From: Marinobacter sp. es.048 | Lineage (GTDB): Bacteria; Pseudomonadota; Gammaproteobacteria; Pseudomonadales; Oleiphilaceae | Length of the DNA stretch: 64,000 nt | NCBI RefSeq assembly: GCF_900188435.1 | Contig: NZ_FYFA01000001.1 | Coordinates: 1,302,001 to 1,366,000, forward strand | Direction: 5' to 3' | Shown here: positions 29,758 to 53,021 of the stretch, piece after piece | Position numbering within the stretch: position 1 is the first letter of the stretch | Layout: each line of letters opens with the position of its first letter | Made by a program: the position numbers and the translations under genes | The notes under the pieces: model-generated | Database searches by the model: none | What the model was told of the DNA's origin: nothing | Seen by the model: the letters and a program-made list of their open reading frames with translations, nothing else

Positions 29758-31176
29758 ATGACCTCCATCCCCGCACTCAGAACGCAAGACTCAACACTGC
29801 CAGAATTCATCTGGGATGACGCCTTGATCCGCCGCTATGATCTCAGTGGTCCAAGGTACACTTCCTACCCCACGGCTGTTGAGTTCAACCAGAACTACCC
29901 TGTTGAAGATATGGTCAAAGCCGCAGCTCGCAGCAAGGTCAGTGGTCGGCCGCTGTCGCTCTACACCCACCTGCCGTTTTGCGCGCACCTTTGCTACTAC
30001 TGTGCCTGCAATAAGGTCATCACCAAAAAGCGCGACAAGGCCATGCCCTACGTGGAGCGGGTGCTGAAAGAGGCGGCCATTCAGTCAAAACTGTTCGGGG
30101 CTGACCGACCGGTGACCCAGCTGCATTGGGGCGGTGGTACGCCGACATTTTTGCCAAAAGATGTGATGGAACACCTGATGGCGGGATACGGGGAGCTGTT
30201 TAACCTGCAAACCGGTGATGAGCGGGATTACAGTGTGGAGATCGACCCACGGGAAGTGGACCAGGACACCCTGCCAACCCTCTGGAAACTGGGTTTCAAC
30301 CGGATCAGTCTGGGCGTTCAGGATGTGAATCCCCAGGTCCAGAAAGCGGTGAATCGCATTCAGCCGAGAGAGATGACCGAAGCCGTGCTGAATGAAACGC
30401 GTCGAATCGGCTTCCGGTCCATTAACCTAGACCTGATCTACGGCCTGCCGCATCAGACCCCGGAAAGCTTTGCCGAAACCCTGGAAGCGGTGATTGAAAT
30501 GTCCCCGGACCGGCTCTCTGTGTTCAGCTACGCGCACCTGCCCGACCGGTTCTATCCGCAGACCCGGATTCAGGGTGATACCTTGCCCAGTCCGCAGCAG
30601 AAGCTGACCATCCTGCACAACACCATAAACCGCCTGCTGGACGCCGGGTACGAATACATTGGCATGGACCACTTCGCCAAGCCGGACGACAGCCTGGCCG
30701 TGGCGCAACGGGAAGGCCGTCTGCACCGGAACTTCCAGGGCTACACCACCCACTCCGAATGCGATCTTGTTTCCCTGGGTGTTTCCGCCATCGGCCAGAC
30801 CGACGACGCCTATTTCCAGAACAATCACGACCTGCCTTCCTGGGAAGCGGCCATCGATGCTGGCCAGCTGGCGATCACCAAAGGCGTGAACCTGACCCGG
30901 GACGACCGGATCCGCCGCTGGGTAATCGGCCAGCTGATCTGCCAGTTCCGTCTGGATCGCCAGCTGTTCGCAGACGTCTGGAACGAAGATCTGAACCGTT
31001 ATTTTGCCGATGAGCTCAGCCGTCTGAAGCCCATGGTTCAGGATGAATTGATTGCCGATGATGGCAGTGCACTGCAGGTTCAGCCCGCGGGCCGGTTGCT
31101 GATCCGGGCCATCTGCCAGATCTTCGACCTGTACCGCAAAGAGGGCGCCAGCCAGCGGTTTTCCCGGATTATCTGA
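29758..31176 (+). CDS. hemN: Oxygen-independent coproporphyrinogen III oxidase HemN
   Basis: A 472-residue radical-SAM enzyme that makes protoporphyrinogen IX from coproporphyrinogen III without oxygen. Key parts are 'YDLSGPRYTSYPTAVEFN' at the N-terminus, the cluster motif CAHLCYYCAC (CX3CX2C, about residues 77-86), 'LHWGGGTPTFLP' for SAM binding and 'YIGMDHFAKPDDSL'. Length is as in E. coli HemN. No good ribosome-binding site precedes ATG 29758, because the REP-like repeat runs to within 10 bp of it. An FNR-type box lies about 100 bp upstream. It supplies heme for the nar and nos electron chain when oxygen is absent. Confidence 0.95.
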   Translation: MTSIPALRTQDSTLPEFIWDDALIRRYDLSGPRYTSYPTAVEFNQNYPVEDMVKAAARSKVSGRPLSLYTHLPFCAHLCYYCACNKVITKKRDKAMPYVERVLKEAAIQSKLFGADRPVTQLHWGGGTPTFLPKDVMEHLMAGYGELFNLQTGDERDYSVEIDPREVDQDTLPTLWKLGFNRISLGVQDVNPQVQKAVNRIQPREMTEAVLNETRRIGFRSINLDLIYGLPHQTPESFAETLEAVIEMSPDRLSVFSYAHLPDRFYPQTRIQGDTLPSPQQKLTILHNTINRLLDAGYEYIGMDHFAKPDDSLAVAQREGRLHRNFQGYTTHSECDLVSLGVSAIGQTDDAYFQNNHDLPSWEAAIDAGQLAITKGVNLTRDDRIRRWVIGQLICQFRLDRQLFADVWNEDLNRYFADELSRLKPMVQDELIADDGSALQVQPAGRLLIRAICQIFDLYRKEGASQRFSRII

Positions 31177-31226: not shown

Positions 31227-31547
31227 TCATTTCCAGAGCGAAAAAAGGGGGCTGTCCGTTTCCGGATAGCCCCTTTTGCGTCTTGCTGGCATCAGCTGTA
31301 GGCCGGCATCAGTTCCCGGACTGCTGGCGAGAAACACAGCGGATCGGCCATGTTCCCCATGCAGGGCATCAGTCAGGGGATCGCCGGCTTCAGCCAGTTC
31401 GACCTTTGAGAGCAGTTGTCGCATGTTGCTTGGCTCACCGTAGTTCAGCGCTAGGCTTTCAACCGCGAAAAAGACAATAACCAACAGGGCCGGTACCACC
31501 AGAGTGATCGGTTTGCCCCGCATGGAGAGGTTGTTTATGAGTTTCGT
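31227..31547 (-). pseudogene. Truncated NIT-domain chemoreceptor (methyl-accepting protein) remnant
   Basis: The minus-strand frame reads KLINNLSMRGKPITLVVPAL (membrane segment) then 'LSKVELAEAGDPLTDALHGEHGRSAVFLASS', the start of a NIT nitrate/nitrite-sensing domain of chemoreceptors. It stops after about 90 residues, reading straight through the terminator at 31241-31277, so HAMP and signalling domains are missing. The codon where the protein would normally begin (31545-31547) is ACG after AAGGCAAGG; the first ATG (31523) has no ribosome-binding site. An FNR box and a NarL pair lie upstream on this strand. It looks like a deletion remnant. Confidence 0.65.
31241..31277. terminator. Bidirectional Rho-independent terminator
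   Basis: GGGGCTGTCCG (31248-31258) pairs with CGGATAGCCCC (31263-31273), with AAAAAA before and TTTT after. It serves hemN on the plus strand and the chemoreceptor remnant on the minus strand. Confidence 0.85.
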
Positions 31548-31677: not shown

Positions 31678-31691
31678 CTGATAAACATCAA
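31678..31691. promoter_or_regulatory. FNR/Anr/Dnr box
   Basis: CTGATAAACATCAA matches TTGAT-N4-ATCAA with one mismatch. Plus-strand transcription would start near 31726 (towards ubiU), minus-strand near 31643 (towards the chemoreceptor). Confidence 0.65.
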
Positions 31692-31723: not shown

Positions 31724-31739
31724 TACCTCCTCTGGGGTA
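31724..31739. promoter_or_regulatory. NarL 7-2-7 site
   Basis: TACCTCC-TC-TGGGGTA is an inverted heptamer pair with 2-bp spacing. It would overlap the predicted plus-strand start, or lie at about -88 for the minus strand, the usual position for NarL activation above an FNR site. Confidence 0.65.
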
Positions 31740-31856
31740 GTCTCACCTTCGATGTGCCGGCGAACAGAAAGGAGCATTCTGAGGCGCTGACAAAGGTCAA
31801 GGCAGTTACTGCCTAAGTGACGGTAAGATAGGGGCAGTCTTGCAGTGGAGAGTGCT

Positions 31857-32190
31857 ATGGAACTTGTCTGCCCGGTCGGTAGCCTGCCGGCCTGAACTTC
31901 AACGATAAGCGCGCCGCCAGCCAGTCGCCCAAACCTGGCGCCATGCTCTGGACAATCTCGAAGCTCGTGCCCAAGGGTTCACTGTTGAACCCCAATGGCG
32001 GAAGACGCTTGCGGCGAATCTGTGATCAGAACGAGTTAGCGGTGGAAGCGAATGATCAAAGTGCCCTTCAGGTTGCGATCCGTAGCAGCATCCCCTTTAT
32101 TACCGGCCCTTCAGTGAATGTCTACAACGTGGCTACGCTCAAAGTACTGGCAAAACAGGGGCTGAAAAGTGAAGGTCTGGCTTTGCCGTT
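31857..32190 (+). pseudogene. Fused, deleted remnant of ubiU and ubiV
   Basis: Pieces of two U32-peptidase-like proteins remain in three reading frames. ATG 31857 (GGAGAG upstream) gives MELVCPVGSLPA then a stop: the UbiU N-terminus. From 31889, one frame back, GLNFNDKRAA matches the next UbiU segment. At 31918-32025 AQTWRHALDNLEARAQGF continues to WRKTLAANL, a UbiU C-terminal piece. From about 32006 LRRICDQNELAVEANDQSAL leads on to ITGPSVNVYNVATLKVLAKQ, the middle of UbiV. No catalytic or Fe-S cysteine set survives. UbiU-UbiV hydroxylate ubiquinone precursors without oxygen; this copy cannot work. Confidence 0.75.
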
Positions 32191-32315
32191 CATGACTCCA
32201 CAGTGTTGGCTCAGCCAAGATCCTCAATGTTGGTTTTCCCGAAACTGATTTGTGTCATTGCCAAACAGTCGCAATTAGTAAACGGTATAACATTGTCCCC
32301 TTAAGGAGCCGCGTT

Positions 32316-34698: not shown

Positions 34699-35018
34699 CG
34701 GCTCAACGGGATCAGTTTTCAGAGTTAACCGGTTAATTGTCGCCCACTATTAAAGTCGTTGCGATACCTATATCAGGGCTACCTAATCATGAGTAAACGC
34801 AAACCTAACGCAAATAATCGCGTTGAGCAATTTGGCAGGTTATTGGCTGTGCAATGGTCTATTTTGCCAGTATCGTCGTTTCGACAGAGGATATTCCATT
34901 TGGTAAAAGCACACTTCGACGAACCAACGACTTTCGAGATCCTCCCCTTAGACAAAGATTTCGAAACCAGCCCTCGGAAATTCGGAAATGGTGAATAATC
35001 ACCGCTAATATTGGAAAA
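34699..35018. other. AT-richer stretch with one doubtful ORF
   Basis: No convincing gene. A plus-strand ORF from ATG 34789 (69 codons, starting MSKRKPNANNRVEQFGRLLA) has no ribosome-binding site and no recognisable similarity. The base composition is more AT-rich than the neighbours, and the stretch follows the frameshifted ubiT, so it may be degraded DNA. Confidence 0.4.
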
Positions 35019-35487
35019 CTACGAGTGCAACAGATATTGCAGACTGACATTCCATTCCAGGCTATCCAACAGATTTTTTTGGAGCCAGTCCCAGTTCAGT
35101 ATCGCTTTCGATTATCAGGTGACGTTGAAAAAACAGCTGATCGGGATCCTGTCTTCGCTCTGCCAGGGTTTTGAATGCAGCCAGTGAGCCACGGATCGTT
35201 GCCTCCCAGGTGCCGTCGATCACGCGAAGACGACCGGCCCAGAAGCCAATGGTGATACCGGGTTGCCCGCCATTTACTTCTTGCCGAATGCGGCGGCCCT
35301 CGAAGTCATCGAATTCTCCGTCACTGATGGCTTGAGCAAACAGGCGATTCAGGGGTGCCTCGGCAGCCAGTTGCTTTAGAGGCATCGGGATTCTGCGATC
35401 AATGGAGCCAAGCATCGGCACGGGGGGGCAGGTATTACCGAAGAACCGAGAGTGTTTGCCCAAGCAGGGGGGAGCATATAGATGCAA
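35019..35487 (-). pseudogene. ubiT: ubiT (SCP2-domain) with C-terminal frameshift
   Basis: The minus strand encodes a UbiT-like SCP2 protein: RRIPMPLKQLAAEAPLNRLF, AISDGEFDDFEGRRI, 'WEATIRGSLAAFKTLAERRQDPDQLFFQRHLIIESDTELGLAPK'. At a run of seven A (35073-35079 as T on the plus strand) the frame breaks to KSVG-stop. With six A it would continue NLLDSLEWNVSLQYLLHS to a stop at 35019, as expected for UbiT. UbiT carries ubiquinone intermediates in the oxygen-independent pathway. The N-terminal start is unclear (no ribosome-binding site at 35487 or 35415). It lies just downstream of narL on the same strand. Confidence 0.7.
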
Positions 35488-35576
35488 CGGTGGGTAGCGA
35501 AAAGGGCATGCTTTACTCCTGGCGGTCAGAAACCTGAACAGAGTGAAGCAAGCCGTTCGGAATGATTCGAGATAGC

Positions 35577-36236
35577 TCAGCCTTTGTGAAGGCCTTCCTC
35601 TACAGCCCAGACGGCAACCTCCACTCGTGAGCGCAGGTTCAATTTCTTCAGCAGGTGCTTTACGTGGACCTTTACGGTGCCGTCGCTGATATCGAGTTTG
35701 CGACCAATCATCTTGTTGGACAGGCCCTCGGCGATCAGGCGCAGAATATCCTTTTCCCGCGGCGTCAGGCTGTCGAAATCCGGGCGTGAAGCCTGCTGAG
35801 GTTTGTTGGAGCGCAGCGCCTGTGCAAGCAGCGTGGTGAGTCGCTCGCTGATCACCATTTTGCCGACCGCCGCCTGATGAAGCTGGGTGATCATGTCTTC
35901 CGGCTCCATGTCCTTCAGCAGGTAGCCGTCTGCGCCGGCCCGAAGCGCCGCCACCACGTCGTCTTCCTGGTCAGAGACCGTGAACATTACGATGCGGGAG
36001 CTGATGTTTTGTTCCCGCAACTTCTTGAGGGCTTCGATGCCGTCCATCTCCGGCATGTTCAGGTCCATCAGGATCAGATCGGGCTCCAGCTCGGTTGCCA
36101 GCCGTATGCCGTCGGCAGCGTTACTGGCCTCACCGGCCACGACCATATCGTCTTCCATCTCGATCAGCTGTTTGATGCCCTGGCGAAGAAGCGGATGATC
36201 ATCAATCAGCAGGATGTTTGCGGGTGACTCAGACAT
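35577..36236 (-). CDS. narL: Nitrate/nitrite response regulator NarL
   Basis: A 219-residue response regulator: receiver domain with phospho-acceptor D58 in [13 protein letters not shown] and conserved K in '[12 protein letters not shown]'; C-terminal LuxR-type helix-turn-helix '[43 protein letters not shown]', almost the exact NarL form. It follows narX by 17 bp on the same strand. Phosphorylated NarL binds inverted heptamers (TACCNCT-like), which occur at several promoters here: narX/narK, narG, the dnr-like gene, moaA and the 31.7-kb region. Confidence 0.95.
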
Positions 36237-36253
36237 CGGTTTCTCTCTTGTTA

Positions 36254-38113
36254 TCAGGCGTTTGACGCTGTTGTGGGAATCAGATTGCGGCTTTTTGGAA
36301 CAAAAGACAGAGTGACTTCCACGCCCCCTTGTTCGTGGTTCTGTACTTCCACCTTACCGCCCAGAGTTCGGGCACGGTCCTGCATGATGATCAGGCCGTA
36401 ATGGTTAATCGGCTGGTCAGTGCCAGGCAGCCCCTTGCCATTGTCTCGAATCCGAACCCTCACCTGCGGCGATTCGAACAGAACATCCACGCTTATGTCT
36501 GTGGCATCCGCATGTTTAACCGCGTTGGCCAGACCTTCCCTCACGATCTGCAGGGTATGGATCTCTTCATTCGGCGACAAGGTCTGAAGCGGCAGATTGT
36601 ACTGCAATCCGACGGGCTTACCCAGTCGCTCGGAAAACTCTTCAATGGTCTTTTCCAAGGCGGTCGCAAGATCGGGTGTGTCCAGTTTCAATCGGAAGGT
36701 GGCCAGCAATTCCCGAAGCTGGCGGTAGGCGCTGTTCAGGCCTGTACTCAGCTCATCCAGAATGCCCTCGTGAATGCCTCTCTGCTCGCCTTGGATGTTA
36801 AGGCGGCGCAACCGGGCCACCTGCATTTTCAGGTAGGACAACGACTGGGCCAGCGAATCATGAAGTTCGCGGGCGATCACGGTACGCTCTTCGGCAAGTG
36901 TCCGCTGCTGCTCCTCGGTAATTTGCCGCTCGAGGAAAATGGCAGTGGCCAGCTGGTCGCTGAGAGTTTCCAGCAGCCGTCGAGAGGTTTTTGACAGGCC
37001 TTCTTCGGCTGGGTACCAGACCTCCAGCGTGCCCAGCAGCTGCCCGGGTGTCCGGATCGGCAAAAGCAGGCGACGGCCGTCGTTGTTTTCTACTGGAAGC
37101 TCATCGTAAACCTCCGGCGTTACCAGACAAGCATTGCAGTGGTGGTCTCGGCAATAGAAGGGGCGTTCCCGGTTGGCCGTTGCAATCGCCTCCACTGGCT
37201 CGGTGAACTCCTTATCATGGAGGTAAAGGCGGATAGGCCCTATGCCCAGTAACTCTTCAAGCTCCTGAAGCATGGGGATAGCCCCATGGCACAAGTCGTG
37301 ATTCGCAAACAGGTCGCGACTTGCAGAGTGCAGTAGTTGAAGCGCGGTGTGGCTCTTTTCCAACTCTTCTGTTTTCAGGCGAGCCCTTTCTTCCAGCTCA
37401 TAGTAGGTAAGCGCGAGCTCGCTGGTCATCTGATCAAAGGCCTGCCCCAGCTGTGCCAGCTCGTCGGAGCCACCCAGGTTGGCCTTACGGGAAAAGTCCT
37501 GATCGCCAACAGCAATGGCGATACCGACCAGCTTGCGTAGTGGCTGCAAGATACGGTTCTTCAGGTCAATGAACAGCGCCACAATGATCAGGATAGAGAA
37601 GGCCAGGCTGATGATCTGAATCAGGTGCAGGAGGTCAATGCGGGCTTCGGTTCGCTGTTCCAGCATCTTCACTAGCTGGTCCACGTCATTCACGTAATTC
37701 TGGGTTGAGGCCAGCATGGCTGCGGAAACAGGTGTGCCCTGGTCGTGTTCCTGCAGGGCAGGCCGGAGCATAGTCGCCCAGGATTCCAGAATGGTTTGGT
37801 ACTGGGTGGCGAGCGGATGGCCACGGCTCTCCGGGATGGCGTTGGAGATGCTGGCGTCACCCAGCTTGGTTTCGTAACGGTCCAGCATGTGTCCGATTGA
37901 GTCCTGATCGGACCCTGAGACGACAGGACCTGCGCTCCGGGCAAGCAGCTGGAAAGCCCCCATGCGGAGGGCACCCGCCAGATTGATCGCGGTGGCGTTG
38001 CCTTCGATGCTTTTGGACACCGCAAGCGTGGTCGCCATGCTGACAAGGGCTGTCAGTACCACGGCGCCAACGACGATGGCGATTCGGGTTACAAGCGGGC
38101 TTCTTGGTGTCAT
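36254..38113 (-). CDS. narX: Nitrate/nitrite sensor histidine kinase NarX
   Basis: A 619-residue sensor: TM1 about 10-30; periplasmic nitrate-binding helix with P-box [22 protein letters not shown]2 about 165-185; HAMP; a GAF-like central module with a Cys cluster ([11 protein letters not shown]); HisKA_3 domain [20 protein letters not shown]; HATPase region '[32 protein letters not shown]'. It phosphorylates NarL when nitrate is present. It is divergent from narK (38295), with two NarL-type sites between them, so autoregulation is likely. Confidence 0.95.
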
Positions 38114-39683: not shown

Positions 39684-42600
39684 ATGAGTCATTTGATAGA
39701 TAAACTGAATTACTTCAGGAAGAAGCGCGAGCCGTTCTCCAACGGCCATGGCGAAACCCACGAAGTCAGCCGCGAGTGGGAAGACAGCTACCGCCAGCGC
39801 TGGCAGCATGACAAGATCGTGCGCTCCACCCACGGCGTAAACTGCACCGGCTCCTGCAGCTGGAAAATTTACGTCAAGAACGGCCTGGTTACCTGGGAAA
39901 CCCAGCAAACCGACTATCCCCGTACCCGCCCGGATCTGCCCAACCACGAGCCTCGCGGCTGCCCACGTGGTGCCAGCTATTCCTGGTACATGTACAGTGC
40001 CAACCGCCTGAAGTACCCGCTGATGCGCAAGCATCTGATGAAGCTCTGGCGTGCCGCGCGCATGCAGTTCAATGACCCGGTGGAAGCCTGGGCTTCTATC
40101 GTCGAAGACCCCAAGAAAACCGCTGAGTACAAGCCCCGCCGTGGTATGGGTGGATTTGTGCGCTCCAGCTGGAACGAAGTCAACGAGCTGATTGGCGCCT
40201 CCAACGTCTACACCGCCAAGAAGCACGGTCCGGACCGCATCATCGGCTTTTCGCCGATTCCCGCCATGTCCATGGTGTCCTACGCCGCGGGCAGCCGCTA
40301 TCTGTCCATGATCGGTGGCGTGTGCATGAGCTTCTACGACTGGTACTGCGACCTGCCACCGGCCTCGCCGCAAACCTGGGGTGAGCAGACCGACGTGCCG
40401 GAATCCGCCGACTGGTACAACTCCGGCTACATCATTGCCTGGGGCTCCAACGTGCCCCAGACCCGTACCCCGGATGCCCACTTCTTCACCGAAGTGCGCT
40501 ACAAGGGCACCAAGACCGTCGCCATTACGCCGGACTACGCCGAAGTCTCCAAGCTGTCCGACGAGTGGATGAACCCCAAGCAGGGTACCGATGCCGCTCT
40601 GGGTATGGCCATGGGGCATGTGATCCTGAAAGAGTTCCACGTCGACAAGCCCAGTGAGTACTTCACCGACTATGTACGTCGCTACACAGACATGCCCTAC
40701 CTGGTCATGCTGGAAGAAAAGGACGATGGCAGCTTCGTGCCGGGCCGTTTCCTCCGCGCCAGTGATCTGGTCGACGGATTGGGTGAAGAGAACAACCCCG
40801 AGTGGAAAACCATCGCCATTGATGAAGCCTCCGGTGAACTGACGGCTCCCAATGGCTCCATCGGCTACCGCTGGGGTGAGAAGGGCAAGTGGAACCTGAA
40901 GCAGACTGCCAAGGGCTCCGACGTCAACCTGCAGTTGTCCATGGTCGAAAAGCACGATGACGTTGTGGACGTTGCCTTCCCGTACTTCGGTGGTATCGAG
41001 CACGACCACTTCAAGCACGTCGAAATCAAGGACATCCTCAAGCACAAGCTGGGTAGCCGAAAGGTGCAGCTGGTGGATGGCTCCGAAGGTCGCGTGGTCA
41101 CCGTCTATGACCTGATGGTCGCCAACTACGGCATCAGCCGTGGTCTGGGCGAGGATGATGGCGCCACCTCCTACGACGAAGTGAAGCCCTATACCCCGGC
41201 CTGGCAGGAAAAGATCACCGGCGTGCCCGCCGAGAAGGTGATCCGCATTGCCCGTGAGTTTGCCGACAACGCCGACAAGACCAAGGGTCGCTCCATGGTC
41301 ATCGTGGGTGCTGGTATGAACCACTGGTACCACATGGATATGAACTACCGCGGCCTGATCAACATGCTGATCATGTGTGGCTGTATCGGCCAGAGCGGTG
41401 GCGGCTGGGCCCACTACGTTGGCCAGGAAAAACTGCGTCCGCAGACCGGCTGGCAGCCCCTGGCGTTCGGTCTGGACTGGCAGCGTCCACCCCGCCATAT
41501 GAACTCTACCTCCTTCTTCTACGCCCACTCCGGTCAGTGGCGCTATGAGAAGCTGGGCGTCGACGAGATCCTGTCACCGCTGGCGGACAAGTCCAAATTC
41601 GGTGGCAGCCTGATCGACTACAACGTACGTGCCGAGCGCATGGGTTGGTTGCCGTCTGCTCCACAGTTGAATCGCAATCCGTTGGGTATTGCCGCCGAAG
41701 CCGAGAAGGCAGGCATGGATGTGGCGGATTACGTAGCCCAGTCCATGAAGGACGGTTCCCTGGCGTTTGCCAGTGAGGATCCGGAAGCGCCCCAGAACCA
41801 TCCGCGCAACCTGTTTATCTGGCGCTCCAACCTGCTGGGTTCCTCAGGCAAGGGCCACGAGTACATGCTCAAGTATCTGCTGGGCACCAAGAGTGGCCTG
41901 CAGGGCAAGGACCTGGGGCACGAAGGTGGCGCCAAGCCGAAAGAGGTCAAATGGCATGACGAGGCGCCGGAAGGCAAGCTCGACCTGTTGGTGACTCTGG
42001 ACTTCCGTATGTCCACCACCTGTCTGTATTCAGACATCGTTCTGCCGACGGCCACCTGGTATGAGAAGAACGACCTGAACACATCGGACATGCACCCGTT
42101 CATCCACCCGCTGACCGCAGCCACCGATCCGGCCTGGGAAGCGCGTAGTGACTGGGAAATCTATAAGGGCATTGCCAAAGCATTCTCAAAGGCGACCGAA
42201 GGCCACCTGGGTGTCGAGAAAGACGTGGTTACCCTGCCGTTGCTGCACGACGCACCGGCGGAGCTTGGTCAGCCGTTCGATGTGAAGGACTGGAAGCGCG
42301 GTGAGTGCGACCTGATCCCGGGCAAGACCGCGCCCAACTTCATCACCGTTGAGCGGGACTACCCGAACACCTACGCACGTTTCACCTCGCTCGGGCCGCT
42401 GCTCGACAAGCTGGGTAACGGTGGCAAGGGCATCAACTGGAATACCGAGAAAGAAGTGAAGTTCCTGGGTGAGCTGAACTACAAGCACATCGACGGCGCT
42501 AACGCGGGCCGTCCGAAAATTGAAAGTGCCATTGACGCAGCGGAAGTGATCCTGACCCTGGCGCCGGAAACCAATGGCCAGGTTGCTGTAAAGGCCTGGG

Positions 42601-43427
42601 CGGCCCTGTCCGAGTTTACCGGACTGGATCACACCCACCTGGCGAAGAACAAGGAAGAGGAAAAAATCCGCTTCCGGGACGTTGTGGCTCAGCCGCGCAA
42701 GATCATCTCCAGCCCGACCTGGTCCGGCCTGGAAGACGAGCATGTGTCCTACAACGCCGGCTATACCAACGTCCACGAACTGATCCCCTGGCGCACACTG
42801 ACCGGTCGTCAGCAGTTCTACCAGGACCACGAGTGGATGCGCGCCTTTGGTGAAAGCCTGCTGGTCTACCGCCCGCCGATCAACACCAAGACGGTCAGCA
42901 GCATGCTGAACCAGCGCAGCAACGGCAATGCCGAGAAAGCGCTGAACTGGATAACGCCGCACCAGAAGTGGGGTATCCACAGCACCTACAGCGACAACCT
43001 GTTGATGCTGACCCTGTCCCGCGGTGGTCCGATTGTTTGGCTGAGCGAAGACGATGCGAAAGAACTGAATATCGAGGACAACGACTGGATCGAACTGTTC
43101 AACGCCAACGGCGCCATCGCCGCCCGCGCGGTGGTAAGCCAACGCGTGATGCCGGGCATGGTGATGATGTACCACGCCCAGGAGCGGATCGTGAACATTC
43201 CGGGCTCGGAAATCACCGGTACCCGTGGCGGTATCCACAACTCGGTCACCCGGGTGTGCCCGAAGCCGACCCACATGATCGGCGGCTACGCCCAGTATTC
43301 CTACGGTTTCAATTACTACGGCACCGTAGGTTCCAACCGCGACGAATTCGTGGTGGTTCGCAAGATGCACAACGTCGACTGGCTCGACGGCGAAGGCAAT
43401 GACACTGTTCAGGAGGCTGTAAAATGA
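39684..43427 (+). CDS. narG: Respiratory nitrate reductase, alpha subunit NarG
   Basis: The 1247-residue catalytic subunit reduces nitrate to nitrite at a bis-MGD molybdenum centre on the cytoplasmic face. The N-terminal FS0 cluster motif THGVNCTGSCSWKIYVKNG (His plus cysteines), 'CPRGASYSWYMYSANRLKYP' and the Mo-binding region 'WGEQTDVPESADWYNSGYI' are all present. The N-terminus MSHLIDKLNYFRKKREPFSN carries the vestigial twin-arginine-like segment usual in NarG. Length is normal. It overlaps narH by ATGA, and is ahead of narHJI in one operon. Codon use is highly biased, as for a strongly expressed gene, which causes long antisense ORFs. Confidence 0.98.
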   Translation: MSHLIDKLNYFRKKREPFSNGHGETHEVSREWEDSYRQRWQHDKIVRSTHGVNCTGSCSWKIYVKNGLVTWETQQTDYPRTRPDLPNHEPRGCPRGASYSWYMYSANRLKYPLMRKHLMKLWRAARMQFNDPVEAWASIVEDPKKTAEYKPRRGMGGFVRSSWNEVNELIGASNVYTAKKHGPDRIIGFSPIPAMSMVSYAAGSRYLSMIGGVCMSFYDWYCDLPPASPQTWGEQTDVPESADWYNSGYIIAWGSNVPQTRTPDAHFFTEVRYKGTKTVAITPDYAEVSKLSDEWMNPKQGTDAALGMAMGHVILKEFHVDKPSEYFTDYVRRYTDMPYLVMLEEKDDGSFVPGRFLRASDLVDGLGEENNPEWKTIAIDEASGELTAPNGSIGYRWGEKGKWNLKQTAKGSDVNLQLSMVEKHDDVVDVAFPYFGGIEHDHFKHVEIKDILKHKLGSRKVQLVDGSEGRVVTVYDLMVANYGISRGLGEDDGATSYDEVKPYTPAWQEKITGVPAEKVIRIAREFADNADKTKGRSMVIVGAGMNHWYHMDMNYRGLINMLIMCGCIGQSGGGWAHYVGQEKLRPQTGWQPLAFGLDWQRPPRHMNSTSFFYAHSGQWRYEKLGVDEILSPLADKSKFGGSLIDYNVRAERMGWLPSAPQLNRNPLGIAAEAEKAGMDVADYVAQSMKDGSLAFASEDPEAPQNHPRNLFIWRSNLLGSSGKGHEYMLKYLLGTKSGLQGKDLGHEGGAKPKEVKWHDEAPEGKLDLLVTLDFRMSTTCLYSDIVLPTATWYEKNDLNTSDMHPFIHPLTAATDPAWEARSDWEIYKGIAKAFSKATEGHLGVEKDVVTLPLLHDAPAELGQPFDVKDWKRGECDLIPGKTAPNFITVERDYPNTYARFTSLGPLLDKLGNGGKGINWNTEKEVKFLGELNYKHIDGANAGRPKIESAIDAAEVILTLAPETNGQVAVKAWAALSEFTGLDHTHLAKNKEEEKIRFRDVVAQPRKIISSPTWSGLEDEHVSYNAGYTNVHELIPWRTLTGRQQFYQDHEWMRAFGESLLVYRPPINTKTVSSMLNQRSNGNAEKALNWITPHQKWGIHSTYSDNLLMLTLSRGGPIVWLSEDDAKELNIEDNDWIELFNANGAIAARAVVSQRVMPGMVMMYHAQERIVNIPGSEITGTRGGIHNSVTRVCPKPTHMIGGYAQYSYGFNYYGTVGSNRDEFVVVRKMHNVDWLDGEGNDTVQEAVK

Positions 43428-44998
43428 AAATCCGTTCCCAAGTCGGCATGGTGCTGAACCTGGACAAGTGCATCGGTTGCCACACCTGTTCAGTAACCTG
43501 CAAAAACGTATGGACCAGCCGTGAAGGCATGGAATACGCCTGGTTCAACAACGTCGAGACCAAGCCTGGTATCGGCTACCCGAAAGAGTGGGAGAACCAG
43601 GACAAGTGGAAGGGCGGCTGGATGCGTGACAGCTCTGGCAAGATCCGTCCGAAGATCGGTGGCCGTTTCCGGGTACTGGCGAACATCTTCGCCAACCCCG
43701 ATCTGCCCCAGATCGACGACTACTATGAGCCGTTTGATTTCGATTACCAGCACCTCCACACCGCCGGCGATACCAAGCACCAGCCGGTTGCACGGCCGCG
43801 CTCGCTGATCTCCGGCCAGCGCATGCAGAAAATCGAATGGGGCCCGAACTGGGAAGAGATTCTCGGTACCGAGTTCGCCAAGCGCCGCAAGGACAAGAAC
43901 TTTGACCAGGTGCAGGCGGATATCTATGGGCAGTTCGAAAACACCTTCATGATGTATCTGCCGCGCCTGTGCGAGCACTGTCTGAATCCCACCTGTGTGG
44001 CCAGCTGCCCGAGCGGCGCCATCTACAAGCGTGAGGAAGACGGCATCGTCCTGATCGACCAGGACAAGTGTCGTGGCTGGCGGATGTGTGTCTCCGGCTG
44101 CCCATACAAGAAGATCTACTTCAACTGGAAGACCGGCAAATCCGAGAAGTGCATTTTCTGCTACCCGCGGATCGAAGCCGGTATGCCCACTGTTTGCTCC
44201 GAGACCTGTGTCGGCCGGATTCGCTACCTCGGCGTGCTGCTGTATGACGCAGACCGCATCGAAGAAGTGGCCAGCGCACCGGGAGAGCATGAGCTGTACG
44301 AAAAGCAGCTGGAAATCTTCCTGGACCCGTTCGATCCGAAAGTGATCGAACAGGCCAAGAAAGACGGCATTCCGATGAACGTGATCGAAGCCGCCCAGCA
44401 GAGCCCGGTCTACAAAATGGCAGTGGACTGGAAGCTGGCCCTGCCGCTGCATCCGGAATACCGCACCCTGCCCATGGTCTGGTACGTGCCACCGCTGAGC
44501 CCAATCCAGTCTGCGGCGGAAGCCGGCAAGGTCGAGTTTGACGGCATACTGCCCAAGATCGAGAGCCTGAGGATCCCTGTGAAATACCTGGCCAACCTGC
44601 TCACCGCCGGTGACGAGAAGCCGATTGTCCGGGCCCTAAAGCGGATCATGGCCATGCGCCTTTACAAGCGTGCCGAAACCGTGGAAGGCAAAGAAGACCT
44701 GCGCGCCCTTGAGGAAGCCGGTCTGACGAAGGCCCAGGCGGATGAAATGTATCGTTACCTGGCCATTGCCAACTATGAGGACCGCTTCGTGATTCCCACC
44801 AGCCACCGCGAGCTGGCGAAGGAAGCCTTCCCCGATGCTACCGCCCATGGTGAGCGCAACGGCTGCGGCTTCAGCTTCGGTGAAGGCTGCAACGGCGACA
44901 GCAAATTCAACATGTTCGGTGGCCGCAAACAGACCACCAGCATGGTCCAGAAGTTGTCGACCGTGAAGCAGGTTGACCCGAAACAGCTGCAGGAATAA
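43424..44998 (+). CDS. narH: Respiratory nitrate reductase, beta subunit NarH
   Basis: A 524-residue iron-sulfur protein that passes electrons from NarI heme b to NarG. Cysteine groups for four clusters are visible: CIGCHTCSVTC near the start, CEHCLNPTCVASCPSG, CRGWRMCVSGCPY (with Trp in place of Cys for the [3Fe-4S] cluster) and CIFCYPRIEAGMPTVCSETC. Start overlaps narG. It is followed after 10 bp by narJ. Length and order are standard. Confidence 0.98.
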   Translation: MKIRSQVGMVLNLDKCIGCHTCSVTCKNVWTSREGMEYAWFNNVETKPGIGYPKEWENQDKWKGGWMRDSSGKIRPKIGGRFRVLANIFANPDLPQIDDYYEPFDFDYQHLHTAGDTKHQPVARPRSLISGQRMQKIEWGPNWEEILGTEFAKRRKDKNFDQVQADIYGQFENTFMMYLPRLCEHCLNPTCVASCPSGAIYKREEDGIVLIDQDKCRGWRMCVSGCPYKKIYFNWKTGKSEKCIFCYPRIEAGMPTVCSETCVGRIRYLGVLLYDADRIEEVASAPGEHELYEKQLEIFLDPFDPKVIEQAKKDGIPMNVIEAAQQSPVYKMAVDWKLALPLHPEYRTLPMVWYVPPLSPIQSAAEAGKVEFDGILPKIESLRIPVKYLANLLTAGDEKPIVRALKRIMAMRLYKRAETVEGKEDLRALEEAGLTKAQADEMYRYLAIANYEDRFVIPTSHRELAKEAFPDATAHGERNGCGFSFGEGCNGDSKFNMFGGRKQTTSMVQKLSTVKQVDPKQLQE

Positions 44999-45008
44999 GG
45001 AGGCCGAC

Positions 45009-45749
45009 ATGCAACTCTTAAAAGTACTGGCACGGGTGCTTGAGTACCCGACCGAAGAACTTCAGGCCTCCAAAGACGCCCTCATTGCCGCTGTCCTCGA
45101 GGACAGCCGGCTGCCCCGGCAGAACAAGGAGCAACTGCTGCGCTGTCTGGAAATGCTGTGCGATGGCGATCTGCTGGACATGCAGGAGAACTACGTCGGC
45201 CTGTTCGACAAGGGCCGGGCCACGTCCCTGCTGCTGTTCGAACACGTGCACGGGGAATCCCGCGACCGTGGTCAGGCCATGGTGGACCTGATGGAGGAAT
45301 ACCGCACTAACGGTCTGGAAATCGACGCCAGGGAATTGCCGGATTATCTGCCGCTGTTCCTGGAATACCTCTCCACCCGCCCCCGGGACGAGATCCAGAA
45401 CTGGCTGGAGGATATCCACCATATCCTGGGCTTGCTGGGTGAGCGCCTGTACCAGAGGGAAAGTTTCTATCACGTGGTGATGGATTCGCTGCTGACCCTC
45501 TCCGGGCGCGCGGCAAACCGCCAGGAGCTGGCCCAGATCGTCGCTTCGGAAGAGCGCGACGACACCCCGGAGGCACTGGACAAAGTCTGGGAAGAGGAAA
45601 TGGTGAAGTTTGTTGATGATCAGGGCAGTTCCTGCAGTACCGGCAGCGTTGTAGGCCAGCGCCGTCGCGAACTGGAGCAGACCCAGACCATTCACCTGAG
45701 TGATCAGCTGATGACGGATGCCACACCCCGTCAGGCAGGGCGCGCCTGA
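45009..45749 (+). CDS. narJ: Nitrate reductase assembly chaperone NarJ
   Basis: A 246-residue TorD-family chaperone that holds apo-NarGH until the molybdenum cofactor is inserted. Family signs: MQLLKVLARVLEYPTEELQ, 'YVGLFDKGRATSLLLFEHVHGESRDRGQAMVDLM', and 'LPDYLPLFLEYLSTRP'. AAGGAGG lies right before ATG 45009, deciding the start. It ends 20 bp before narI. Confidence 0.95.
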   Translation: MQLLKVLARVLEYPTEELQASKDALIAAVLEDSRLPRQNKEQLLRCLEMLCDGDLLDMQENYVGLFDKGRATSLLLFEHVHGESRDRGQAMVDLMEEYRTNGLEIDARELPDYLPLFLEYLSTRPRDEIQNWLEDIHHILGLLGERLYQRESFYHVVMDSLLTLSGRAANRQELAQIVASEERDDTPEALDKVWEEEMVKFVDDQGSSCSTGSVVGQRRRELEQTQTIHLSDQLMTDATPRQAGRA

Positions 45750-45769
45750 GGGCGCAGGAGGAAACAGAA

Positions 45770-46450
45770 ATGATGTCCTATCTGAATACACTATTGTTCG
45801 GGGTTTATCCCTACATTGCTATCGCGATCCTGGTGCTTGGTACCTGGGCCCGGTATGACCAGGGGCAGTTCACATGGAAAGCCCATTCCAGCCAGATTCT
45901 GCGCAAGAAAAACATGGTGATGGCCAGTGTACTGTTCCATGTGGGCGTACTGGTGATCTTCTTCGGCCACCTGGTGGGCCTGCTGACGCCTCATGCGTTC
46001 TATGAACCGTTCATGACTCCCGGCACCAAGCAGGTGATGGCGATCGTGGTTGGTGGAATTGCCGGCGTGATGGCGATCATTGGCGGTGCCATGCTTGCCT
46101 GGCGCCGGCTCACTGACCCGCGCGTGAAGGCCAGCAGCACCTTTGCTGACAATATGATCATTATCATCCTGGTGGTCCAGCTGGTCCTGGGTATGCTCAC
46201 CATCCTGCCCACCATGGGCCATCTGGATGGCAGCACCATGCTCAAGTTCTCCGCCTGGGCGCAGGGTGTCGTCACCCTACAGGGCGGCGTGGCCGGCTAC
46301 GTTGCCGACGTGCACTGGATCTACAAGACCCACATCTTCCTGGGCCTGACCATCTTCGTACTCTTCCCGTTCACCCGCCTGGTGCACATGCTCAGCGTGC
46401 CGGTGGAGTATTTCGGACGGAAGTACCAGGTGGTGCGCAAGCGGGCGTAA
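45770..46450 (+). CDS. narI: Respiratory nitrate reductase, gamma subunit NarI
   Basis: A 226-residue membrane cytochrome b with five segments. It binds two hemes b by histidines in 'VLFHVGVLVIFFGHLVGL' and 'VDVHWIYKTHIFLGLTIFVLFPFTRLVHML' style segments, and oxidises quinol on the periplasmic side. It starts MMSYLNTLLFGVYPYIA with AGGAGG upstream. It is the last structural gene of narGHJI; a palindromic repeat follows. Confidence 0.97.
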   Translation: MMSYLNTLLFGVYPYIAIAILVLGTWARYDQGQFTWKAHSSQILRKKNMVMASVLFHVGVLVIFFGHLVGLLTPHAFYEPFMTPGTKQVMAIVVGGIAGVMAIIGGAMLAWRRLTDPRVKASSTFADNMIIIILVVQLVLGMLTILPTMGHLDGSTMLKFSAWAQGVVTLQGGVAGYVADVHWIYKTHIFLGLTIFVLFPFTRLVHMLSVPVEYFGRKYQVVRKRA

Positions 46451-48916: not shown

Positions 48917-51061
48917 GTGTCCGTTTTTTTCCGCTTCGCTTTCCTGTTTTCCACGTTGGTCCTGGCTATGGCCCTGAATGCCGCGCCTCTAGGTAAGTAT
49001 GAGCCTGTTGCCGGTCGTCAGGTCATCAAGCAGACGTTTCCGGATGTCACCAGGGTTATTCCCAGGGAAGGCAATCGAGCCATCCAGGAGCTCTATGTTC
49101 GCAAGGAATTGGTGGGCTACGCCTATCAGTCCCTGGATTTTGTACAGACTCCCGCCTACTCGGGCAAACCGGTCAATGCCATGGTATTGCTGGATACCGA
49201 AGGCACCATCAAGGCCGCCAAGGTAATCCACCACGATGAGCCCATTCTTCTGGTGGGTATTCCCGAAAGCAAAATGCACGCCTTTACCGATCAGTACACG
49301 GGCCTGAAAGCCGACCAGCGGGTAACCGTGGGTGGAACTTCCTCCGAACGCAAGGTTGCCGTTGATGGTTTGTCCGGTGCCACGGTCACCGTGATGGTGA
49401 TCAATGAAGTGATTATGCGCACCGCCCACCGGGTGGCCGTGGAGCTGGGCATGGTTGAAGGCGAGGATGGAACCCGTCCGCCGATGGCCACCGTGGACAA
49501 ACAGGCTTACGAACAGAAAACCTGGCAGGAACTGACTGGTGACGGCTCTGTGCGCCGGTTGCTGCTCACCAAGGGCCAGGTGGATGATTCGTTCAAAGGC
49601 ACGGAAGCCGAGGGTGTTGATACCGCAGGCCCGGAAGAAAGAAACGAGCCGCTGATTGAACTCTATACTGCCTACCTGGATGTGCCCACCATTGGCCGGA
49701 ACATGCTGGGAGAAAGCCAGTATCAGTGGCTGACATCCGAGCTGCAGGAAGGCGAGCATGCAATTGCCGTGATGGCCGACGGTGAGTATTCCTTCAAGGG
49801 GTCGGGCTATGTGCGTGGCGGCATCTTTGATCGCATCCAGATTCGTCAGTTCGGTGACACCTTCAATTTCCGTGACCTGGATTTCTACCGGCTAAGCGAC
49901 GTTTATGCCGAGGGCATGCCGAAATTCACCGAGATGGCGATTTTCATCATTCGCCAGCAATACAACTTCGATCCTGGCACTCCATGGACACTTGAACTCA
50001 CGGTGAAGCGCCAGACTGGACCGCTGGACAGCGAATTCCAGGTCTTCCCCCTCGAGTATCAACTGCCGGAGCAGTTTTATACCCGTCCGGAGCCGGTCGT
50101 CTCCGAGGAAGAATGGCTGGAAAGCCAGCCCATGTGGGTGCAGGTATGGTACCAGCGTGAATTCCAGATTGTGGTGCTCGGTATCGGAATCGGTGTGCTG
50201 ATGTTCATCCTGTTTTTCCAGGACTGGCTGGTGAAAAAGCCGAAGATGATGCGCTGGATCCGCCACGCCTTCCTGACCTACACGCTGTTCTTCATCGGCT
50301 GGTATGCCATGGGTCAGCTTTCCATCGTCAACGTGCTCACGTTTGCCAACAGCCTGATCAGTGGCTTCAGTTGGAGCACGTTCCTGATCGATCCGATGCT
50401 GTTCATCCTCTGGGCCGTGGTGGCCGCCATCATCCTGCTCTGGGGCAGGGCGGTGTACTGCGGCTGGTTATGCCCATTTGGCGCCCTCCAGGAATTGCTG
50501 AACGAGATAGCCCGCAAACTCAAGGTGCCCCAATACACCGTGCCGTTCGCCGTGCACGAGCGGCTTTGGGCCATCAAGTACATCATTCTGCTGGTGCTTT
50601 TCGGAGTGTCGCTGGATTCCATGGCAACCGCCGAACGGCTTGCCGAGGTGGAGCCGTTCAAAACCGCCATCACGCTGAAATTTGACCGCAGCTGGCCTTT
50701 TGTCACCTACGCCGGTGTGTTGCTGGTGGTGAATCTATTCACCCGCAAAGTGTTCTGCCGCTACATGTGTCCCCTGGGCGCAGCCTTGGCACTGCCGACC
50801 AAACTTCGGGTGTTCGACTGGCTCAAACGCCGGAAGGAGTGTGGCAATCCCTGCCGGTTGTGTGACCACGAGTGTGAAGTTCAGGCAATCCATCCGGACG
50901 GCCACATCAACTATATGGAATGCCATTACTGCCTGGACTGCCAGATGACCTATTTCGATGATCACAAGTGCCCGCCGCTGATCGTCAAGCGACGCGGCAA
51001 GCGCCGTGGTCATAACGCACCGGGCCACCCGGAGGAAATACCCGTGGTTCAGGTGACTTGA
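48917..51061 (+). CDS. nosR: NosR, electron donor/regulatory flavoprotein for N2O reduction
   Basis: A 714-residue membrane protein needed for nos expression and NosZ activity. It starts with a GTG (GGGAG upstream) and a signal peptide (to about residue 22). The periplasmic FMN domain follows, with the flavinylation motif 'DGLSGATVTVMVINE' near residues 154-168. Then come several membrane segments (about 415-620) with CGWLCPFGALQE and CRYMCPLGAALAL, and a C-terminal polyferredoxin 'CGNPCRLCDHECEVQAI' with 'MECHYCLDCQMTYFDDHKCPP'. It heads nosRZDFYL. Confidence 0.97.
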   Translation: MSVFFRFAFLFSTLVLAMALNAAPLGKYEPVAGRQVIKQTFPDVTRVIPREGNRAIQELYVRKELVGYAYQSLDFVQTPAYSGKPVNAMVLLDTEGTIKAAKVIHHDEPILLVGIPESKMHAFTDQYTGLKADQRVTVGGTSSERKVAVDGLSGATVTVMVINEVIMRTAHRVAVELGMVEGEDGTRPPMATVDKQAYEQKTWQELTGDGSVRRLLLTKGQVDDSFKGTEAEGVDTAGPEERNEPLIELYTAYLDVPTIGRNMLGESQYQWLTSELQEGEHAIAVMADGEYSFKGSGYVRGGIFDRIQIRQFGDTFNFRDLDFYRLSDVYAEGMPKFTEMAIFIIRQQYNFDPGTPWTLELTVKRQTGPLDSEFQVFPLEYQLPEQFYTRPEPVVSEEEWLESQPMWVQVWYQREFQIVVLGIGIGVLMFILFFQDWLVKKPKMMRWIRHAFLTYTLFFIGWYAMGQLSIVNVLTFANSLISGFSWSTFLIDPMLFILWAVVAAIILLWGRAVYCGWLCPFGALQELLNEIARKLKVPQYTVPFAVHERLWAIKYIILLVLFGVSLDSMATAERLAEVEPFKTAITLKFDRSWPFVTYAGVLLVVNLFTRKVFCRYMCPLGAALALPTKLRVFDWLKRRKECGNPCRLCDHECEVQAIHPDGHINYMECHYCLDCQMTYFDDHKCPPLIVKRRGKRRGHNAPGHPEEIPVVQVT

Positions 51062-51125
51062 GTAGTCCCATAAAAAGAAAGCATGAGAAGCAAAACCGCC
51101 ATTACCAATAACGGAGTTGGATGTT

Positions 51126-53021
51126 ATGAAAAAAAGAGATGATCTGACCAAGGACATGCCGGAGCTTCCGGAAAGCGGCCAGAGCCGCCGCCGGTTTATG
51201 GGCGCTGCTGCCCTTGCGGGCGTTGCCGGTGCAACCGGGCTTGGCACCGCAGTAATGTCGCGCGAGGCATTCGCGGCCGCCGCCGAGGAGGCCCGCAACA
51301 AATACGTGATACATCCGGGGGAGCTGGACGAGTACTACGGTTTCTGGAGTGGTGGTCACTCTGGTGAAGTAAGGGTTTTGGGTGTGCCCTCCATGCGCGA
51401 GCTTATGCGCATTCCGGTGTTCAATGTGGACTCTGCGACCGGATGGGGCATCAGCAACGAGAGTAAGGACGTGCTGGGCCATGACAATACCCACCTGAAT
51501 GGCGATTCCCACCACCCCCATATTTCCATGACGGATGGCCGTTACGATGGCAAGTACCTGTTCATCAATGACAAGGCCAATACCCGTGTGGCCCGGATCC
51601 GCCTGGACATCATGAAGTGTGACAAGATCACCACCATCCCCAATGTGCAGGCCATTCATGGTCTGCGACTGCAGAAGGTGCCAAAAACCAAGTACGTCTT
51701 CTGCAACGCGGAATACGTGATTCCGCATCCCAATGATGGCAGCGATACCAGCCTTGAAAGCAGCTTCACCATGTTCAATGCGGTTGATGCGGAGACCATG
51801 GAGGTAGCCTTCCAGGTAATTGTTGACGGCAACCTGGACAACACCGACGCCGACTACACCGGCAAGTACGCCTGCTCCACCTGCTACAACTCGGAGAAGG
51901 CGCTGGATCTGGCCGGTACCATGCGCAATGATCGCGACTGGGCGGTGGTGTTCAATATCGAACGCATCGAGCAGGCGGTGAAGAACGGCAACTACAAGAC
52001 TCTGGGTGACTCCAAGGTTCCGGTGGTAGACGGTCGTGCAGGCTCGGAACTGACCCGTTACATCCCTGTTCCCAAGAACCCCCATGGCCTGAATACCTCG
52101 CCGGACGGCAAATACTTTATTGCCAACGGCAAGCTGTCACCGACCGTGTCCATCATTGCCATCGACAAGCTGGACGATCTGTTCGACGGCAAGATCGCGC
52201 CGCGCGATACCGTGGTGGGCGAGCCCGAGCTGGGTCTTGGGCCTCTGCATACAACCTTCGATGGCCGTGGCAATGCCTATACCACACTGTTTATCGACAG
52301 CCAGGTGGCGAAGTGGAACATCGCGGATGCCATCAAGCACTACAACGGCGAGGATGTGAACTACATCCGTCAGAAGCTGGACGTGCATTATCAGCCGGGC
52401 CACAACCATGCGTCCCTGACCGAATCCCGAGATGCCGATGGCAAGTGGCTGGTTGTGCTGTCGAAGTTCTCCAAGGACCGGTTCCTGCCGGTTGGACCTC
52501 TGCATGCAGAGAACGACCAGTTGATCGATATCTCCGGTGAGGAGATGAAGCTGGTTCACGATGGCCCGACTTTCGCCGAGCCTCACGACTGTATTCTGGT
52601 GCGTCGTGATCAGATCAAGACCAAGAAGATCTACGATCGCGACGATCCGTTCTTTGCCTCTGCCGTTGAGCAGGCCAGGAAGGATGGCGTGACTCTGGAA
52701 GCCGACAACAAAGTTATCCGCGATGGCAACAAGGTTCGTGTATACATGACCTCGATTGCGCCGCAGTACGGGATGACCGAGTTCAAGGTGAAACAGGGTG
52801 ATGAAGTGACGGTGTATGTGACCAACCTGGACACTATTGAAGATGTGACCCACGGTTTCTGTATGGTGAACCATGGTGTGAGCATGGAGGTCAGTCCGCA
52901 GCAGACAGCTTCGGTGACCTTCAAGGCGGATCGTCCAGGGGTGCACTGGTACTACTGCAACTGGTTCTGTCATGCGCTGCATATGGAGATGCGGGGTCGC
53001 ATGATTGTAGAGAAGGCCTGA
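51126..53021 (+). CDS. nosZ: Nitrous oxide reductase NosZ
   Basis: A 631-residue periplasmic enzyme that reduces N2O to N2. It has a Tat signal ([20 protein letters not shown] near residues 15-34), a seven-bladed propeller holding the CuZ cluster with His motifs ('[15 protein letters not shown]', '[13 protein letters not shown]', 'AEPHDC'), and a C-terminal cupredoxin with the CuA site [14 protein letters not shown]. This is clade I NosZ (Tat type). ATG 51126 is used; a TTG at 51117 is closer to GGAG but less likely. Confidence 0.98.

Follow-up and report, generated by a model that had tools for sequence, protein, structure and literature searches.

The known oxygen-independent pathway of ubiquinone synthesis comprises three genes, ubiT, ubiU, and ubiV. 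In Escherichia coli, the U32 protein UbiU and the U32-family protein UbiV are each described as having four Fe-S cysteines, C169, C176, C193, and C232 in the former and C39, C180, C193, and C197 in the latter (PMC6747719). An E. coli mutant lacking DMK was reported to require UbiUV for nitrate respiration under anaerobic conditions, and E. coli ubiUV mutants showed no phenotype at 0.1% O2, where DMK/MK presumably carries the flow (PMC10470549). In Pseudomonas, the pathway has been called essential for denitrification (PMC7713065, citing Vo et al. 2020), and ubiUVT of P. aeruginosa is described as Anr controlled (PMC10247376). Across the Pseudomonadota, FNR sites were reported before ubiU or ubiT in 1362 of 1566 ubiTUV sets, and repeated lineage-level loss of ubiTUV, with the O2-dependent pathway kept, has been described (PMC11707229). 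Q9 is the ubiquinone listed for most tabulated Marinobacter species (PMC3660661).

The stretch of DNA analyzed here (the window; 64,000 nucleotides) belongs to a Marinobacter genome, G000, of 4.06 Mb in 2 contigs with a completeness rating of 99.98%. Its nearest named hemN loci were those of M. maroccanus and Marinobacter sp. EhC06, each at 97% protein identity. The gene order in the intact relatives first read was hemN, a NIT-domain methyl-accepting chemotaxis protein (MCP) gene on the minus strand, ubiU, and ubiV, sometimes with an extra gene between; in M. flavimaris (L083), UbiU and UbiV exceeded the NCBIfam equivalog cutoffs (NF047963 and NF047965, respectively), and the MCP had NIT and MCPsignal domains. 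The window held only pieces of ubiU and ubiV at this place (Table 1). Together with a broken ubiT, this multideletion ubiU-ubiV pseudogene very probably reflects the loss of the known oxygen-independent ubiquinone pathway in one species after its split from the nearest sequenced relatives.

Table 1. Features of the window, in window coordinates (position p of L178, the window's own locus, is window position 30699 + p).
Feature	Position	Strand	Remarks
hemN, O2-independent coproporphyrinogen dehydrogenase	29758..31176	+	Intact, 472 aa; genus-wide upstream neighbor of ubiUV
NIT-domain MCP stub	31295..31547	-	N-terminal part of about 80 codons and a few final codons
FNR/Anr-like box	31678..31691		9/10 bases of consensus; counterparts in M. 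flavimaris and EhC06
NarL-type 7-2-7 dyad	31724..31739		Misses the strict pattern, fits a looser one
Anr/FNR-type box of ubiU	31787..31800	+	70 bp before the ATG; 7/10 bases of the textbook consensus
ubiU piece 1, residues 1-12	31857..31892	+	Then an in-frame stop; frame from the ubiU start is 12 codons
ubiU piece 2, residues 38-48	31886..31918	+	tblastn with the M. flavimaris protein
ubiU piece 3, residues 284-313	31924..32013	+	tblastn E value of 1e-9, M. flavimaris query
ubiV piece, residues 80 to about 138	32003..32179	+	tblastn E value of 4e-22, M. flavimaris query
DNA matching strain HL-58 (L087) just 3' of its ubiV stop	32178..32227	+	DNA comparison
Probable hemerythrin-GGDEF-EAL stub	34900..35003	+	Residues 1-23 (E value of 0.005) plus a further short DNA match, in order
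ubiT pseudogene	35028..35509	-	Three lesions compared with 14 relatives that have intact ubiT (DNA alignment, 13 of them)
narL- and narX-like two-component genes	35577..38113	-	Intact; named from domains and position
narGHJI	39684..46450	+	Intact; narG, narH, narJ, and narI each over the family cutoff
nosR and nosZ	48917..53021	+	Intact, pass models; G000 nosZ passes the TAT-dependent NosZ model
nos-like ORFs after nosZ	up to 56822	+	Named from the ORF list alone

Of the 331 UbiU residues, the remnant kept about 53, and of the 297 UbiV residues, about 59; the pieces lie in three frames and are collinear with the intact genes. With M. flavimaris proteins as tblastn queries, UbiU residues 1 to 12 plus 38 to 48 matched with an E value of 0.002, and the last codons of the ubiV piece were found to come from about residue 151 onward, beyond a 63-bp deletion. 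Relative to intact relatives, ubiUV had deletions of about 82, 700, 318, and 63 bp and one more that took the rest of ubiV and ended in DNA located just past the ubiV stop in one relative (HL-58). The first-pass annotation of this DNA had claimed ordered UbiU and UbiV pieces in three frames at 31857 to 32190, with which the tblastn alignments to both proteins agreed, and at least three internal deletions; five were counted here. A search of the rest of the genome for intact ubiU or ubiV, which that annotation had proposed, found none; the sole U32 match at an E value of 0.001 was TrhP (706 bits; cutoff, 534). Neither protein was present at full length: the UbiU residues kept fall outside the cysteine stretch, if the E. 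coli numbering carries over, and only residues 80 to about 138 of UbiV were left. Collinear pieces with a destroyed frame, with no functional copy elsewhere in the genome, identify a pseudogene formed by deletion.

The decay extended beyond what had first been described and included the MCP stub, the broken ubiT, and probably a hemerythrin-GGDEF-EAL stub, as judged from alignments with relatives. About 1.76 kb had been lost from within the MCP gene. The probable hemerythrin-GGDEF-EAL stub sits between a GGDEF gene and ubiT; the corresponding gene in M. flavimaris encodes 662 aa, and window positions 34695 to 34899 matched the DNA upstream of it. The GGDEF gene itself was intact in the window (33100 to 34698) and had a big internal deletion in M. 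flavimaris (L083 positions 16884 to 17230), so that decay by deletion has gone in both directions within this cluster. In ubiT, the reading frame met a stop at codon 25, a short stretch was missing immediately ahead of the residues MLG, and the frame shifted in a run of A close to the 3' end. The middle of ubiT scored over the cutoff of the UbiT model NF047962 (89.5 bits; cutoff, 46.9), no open SCP2-domain frame ran from start to stop, and translation from an internal ATG (35415) may give a shorter UbiT product. Each of the three known genes for oxygen-independent ubiquinone synthesis was broken in G000; hemN, narGHJI, and nosRZ read intact.

The deletion junctions were compared for direct repeats with at most one mismatch, and a repeat was counted only when it exceeded all slid controls, which overlap one another. 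At junction B (the 82-bp deletion), a repeat beyond all controls was found in comparisons with 6 of 10 relatives. The corresponding counts were 1 of 4 relatives at junction A (the MCP deletion), 0 of 8 at junction C (700 bp), 1 of 8 at junction D (318 bp), and 0 of 1 at junction E (63 bp); the signal was clear at one of these five junctions and weak or absent at the other four, which falls short of a repeat at every window junction. Among other losers of ubiUV (four species or strains compared with relatives), 6 of 10 junctions had a repeat beyond all slid controls, with the junction intervals taken from BLAST overlaps, which biases toward finding repeats. Slipped mispairing between short direct repeats likely made some of the deletions. 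A deletion of roughly 80 bp near the ubiU start was seen in three losers (78 bp in L127, 86 bp in L120, and 82 bp in the window), at differing exact places.

FNR and NarL sites were scored against the textbook consensus patterns. An Anr/FNR-type box 68 to 74 bp ahead of the ubiU start occurred at 59 of the 61 intact loci, with 0.0037 expected per slot, and a box of this type at a conserved distance before ubiU is what defines a predicted FNR/Anr-controlled ubiUV promoter, which the window retains. Sites of the quality of the second box (9/10) occurred four times in the 64 kb, and that box, at 31678 to 31691, may serve the MCP gene. The strict 7-2-7 NarL pattern was absent from the window's promoter and present in 3 of 61 relatives; a looser dyad pattern, defined after inspection of the alignment, matched in the window and in 18 of the 32 relatives whose MCP gene lies directly upstream, against an expectation of 0.013 per region. 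The earlier description of the promoter signals as good therefore holds for the ubiU box in that it is conserved, but this box matches only 7/10 bases of the consensus, and the NarL dyad misses the strict pattern.

The genus-wide state of the locus was read from 80 named hemN loci, the best 80 of 326, of which 75 were Marinobacter or grouped with it (including L149, titled Halomonas, which matches Marinobacter) and 5 from other genera were dropped. Among these 75 loci, 61 had a full-length UbiU, 10 had lost ubiU or had it in pieces, and 4 lay on contigs that were too short to be judged. A full-length UbiV followed 13 to 20 bp behind ubiU in 60 of the 61. In M. santoriniensis (L044/L105, G019), ubiU and ubiV departed from this near-universal adjacency: about 8 kb separated them, occupied by ORFs resembling a response regulator and a partner and by one ORF of 1750 aa.

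A hemN tree covered 71 Marinobacter rows plus 2 outgroups. It took 10 changes to account for the 11 loss rows (the 10 losers and the window), at least 7 of them forced by well-supported branches; clustering of the loss label did not exceed that in shuffles, 204 of 500 of which gave a value as low. The window's five nearest rows all had intact ubiUV, which rules out a loss common to sister species and places the loss on this species' own branch. The ubiV piece was 70 to 83% identical to intact copies, which were 70 to 92% identical among themselves. Since the nearest rows were intact and the piece was no more diverged than intact copies, decay is recent on the species scale, as the first-pass annotation had suggested.

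The ubiV piece (window positions 32006 to 32160) was nearer to M. guineae (83%) than to the sisters of the window's own species (70 to 74%), and the sisters' ubiV allele differed from that of other relatives; this closeness may reflect allele exchange by recombination. Counted as a sign of neutral drift, for which this piece is too short, the changes unique to the window numbered 1, 1, and 4 by codon position relative to the guineae-type set and 7, 2, and 16 relative to the sisters.

For 9 of the 11 loss genomes, the absence of UbiUV extended to the whole genome as searched; for L127 and L134, the assignment came from the hemN locus only. In 20 post-hemN regions of UbiUV-less genomes, window included, pieces of UbiU or UbiV were present in 6 and absent from 14, the latter including those of narG-keeping G041 and G058 and two regions of only 5 to 6 kb. 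The remnants comprised UbiU residues 1 to 96 in M. vulgaris, 110 to 147 in M. changyiensis, and 31 to 70 and 186 to 211 in M. lipolyticus SM19; part of the UbiV C terminus, with stops, in M. lipolyticus AESS41; and UbiU with internal deletions plus UbiV from residue 54 in the MAG of M. excellens HL-55. As these losers keep different residues, the ubiUV losses were probably separate events.

A total of 124 Marinobacter genomes were searched for U32 proteins, narG, and UbiT. UbiUV was absent from 38 of them (0 or 1 U32 match), including six with no U32 match that were assigned by elimination. Among the 110 good genomes (at least 90% complete and at most 5% contaminated), 70 had UbiUV and narG, 11 had UbiUV without narG, 6 had narG without UbiUV, and 23 had neither (Fisher P of 2e-10 for the association, with kinship ignored). 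The six with narG alone were G000, G006 (M. changyiensis), G041, G042, G058, and G133 (M. vulgaris). Only G000 among them had a UbiT match, and a NosZ model was matched over its length in G000 and G133, under that model's cutoff. The loss of ubiUV beside nar and nos had been called unexpected; beside nar, such loss is unusual but not unique, since 6 of 76 good narG-positive genomes lacked UbiUV. No match to the window's hemN at an E value of 1e-100 was found in 15 of 33 UbiUV-less genomes, which were the searched part of the 37 other than G000 and included 5 that were not good. TrhP looked patchy in this survey: 26 of the 124 genomes had no U32 match at all, and 5 had two matches, fitting UbiU and UbiV, and none fitting TrhP.

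In line with the first-pass annotation, which had called the nar and nos operons complete, narGHJI, nosR, and nosZ all passed their models. No convincing NirS was found in G000, in which one 88-position match of 29 bits was formally above the Pfam cutoff of 25.5; a real NirS, in G023, scored 511 bits. NirK was not found over its cutoff in G000 either (36 bits; cutoff, 296). In view of these two results, G000 is probably not a full denitrifier. M. flavimaris (G009), in which UbiUV is present, was likewise without a convincing NirS. Three full-length O2-dependent Ubi hydroxylases were found in G000. Menaquinone was considered as a replacement and rejected; MenD, the sole menaquinone gene covered, was over its cutoff in none of eight genomes, G000 included.

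With the known oxygen-independent pathway lost, Q9 would now be made only with the O2-dependent hydroxylases, and this oxygen-made pool would serve nitrate and N2O reduction under low oxygen or over a few generations once oxygen is exhausted. The absence of a phenotype in E. coli ubiUV mutants at 0.1% O2 lends the low-oxygen use no direct support, since electron flow there presumably runs through DMK/MK. A species making Q9 only with oxygen would not grow indefinitely in strict anoxia. M. lipolyticus, with two strains among the losers here, is tabulated as nitrate negative and strictly aerobic, and M. flavimaris is tabulated as nitrate positive with anaerobic growth possible (PMC3660661); both are in line with nitrate respiration on oxygen-made Q9. 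For M. excellens, nitrate respiration and anaerobic growth are tabulated, in a strain other than HL-55 (PMC3660661), and these traits, set against the loser MAG HL-55, either count against reliance on oxygen-made Q9 or reflect another strain.

The whole anaerobic lifestyle might be in the course of being dropped, with nar and nos next and still undecayed, a course of events that we regard as possible but rather unlikely. It would fit with the finding that 23 of the 29 good UbiUV-less genomes also lacked narG over the cutoff, with the missing hemN matches in 15 of 33, and with the lack of a convincing NirS or NirK in G000; M. flavimaris, however, has UbiUV and yet no convincing NirS, and narG of G000 had no nonsynonymous excess. 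The dN/dS of G000 narG relative to the nearest UbiUV-positive genome (among 15) was 0.015, indicating strong purifying selection, compared with a range of 0.015 to 0.062 for UbiUV-positive genomes and 0.044 to 0.088 for the other five UbiUV-less genomes. With G007 as the chosen outgroup, 2 to 9 nonsynonymous and 105 to 117 synonymous codon changes were assigned to narG of G000 itself, and 2 to 6 and 111 to 118, respectively, to its four sisters. In four further pairs, the nonsynonymous changes in the UbiUV-less genome and its paired genome were 27 and 8, 61 and 8, 20 and 9, and 21 and 23; the excess in three of the four may stem from mildly relaxed selection, from branches of unequal length, or from a poor choice of outgroup.

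The unrelaxed narG of G000 also fits anaerobic growth by another route. An undescribed enzyme or route could replace UbiUV for oxygen-independent ubiquinone synthesis in several narG-keeping lineages without UbiTUV or MenD, and the purifying selection on narG without UbiUV, together with the five other good genomes that keep narG without a full UbiUV or a UbiT match, would agree with it. We nevertheless consider such a replacement improbable, given that a search covering U32 proteins and MenD yielded no candidate, that oxygen-made Q9 explains the same facts, and that the loser M. lipolyticus is among the species tabulated as nitrate negative and strictly aerobic. It is very doubtful that the remnant is retained for regulation, as a leader peptide or small RNA behind an Anr-type promoter: the ubiU box is preserved, but there was no Rfam match within the window, and the pieces kept differ among the other losers, some of which have none detectable, so that no common remnant is under selection. 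An assembly or sequencing error, with the genes really full and the joins artifactual, is scarcely credible; one ubiT lesion does lie in a homopolymer run, a common error site, but this explanation would need errors at five ubiUV deletions, at the MCP deletion, at the probable third stub, and at three separate ubiT lesions, in an assembly of 2 contigs whose nar and nos genes in the window read through; comparable remnants also occur at this place in other species.

UbiTUV is held to be necessary for nitrate respiration under strict anoxia in ubiquinone-only bacteria, and narGHI in a genome is no proof of growth without oxygen. A genus with repeated loss, halfway stages, and six good narG-positive UbiUV-less genomes constitutes a natural experiment, which could separate the use of oxygen-made ubiquinone, at low oxygen only, from another route. 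The pathway is already known and the case of loss is fresh; among published titles and the starts of abstracts, a body of text mostly outside subscription journals, none described such ubiUV remnants in Marinobacter.

Compared with an intact Marinobacter ubiUV, that of M. flavimaris, the window is alike in order, in place after hemN and the MCP gene, and in the box 70 bp upstream, but it holds only scattered residues in three frames. Its ubiT resembles known UbiT (NF047962) in that the middle passes the model and differs by an early stop, a small deletion, and a frame change. M. vulgaris, M. changyiensis, M. lipolyticus SM19 and AESS41, and M. excellens HL-55 have remnants at the same post-hemN place but differ in the residues kept. 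Marinobacter shares with the lineage-level loss described for the Pseudomonadota (PMC11707229) that the oxygen-independent pathway has gone repeatedly and the O2-dependent one has been kept; in contrast to it, the case in the window is one in progress, within one genus, with remnants still present and nar kept.
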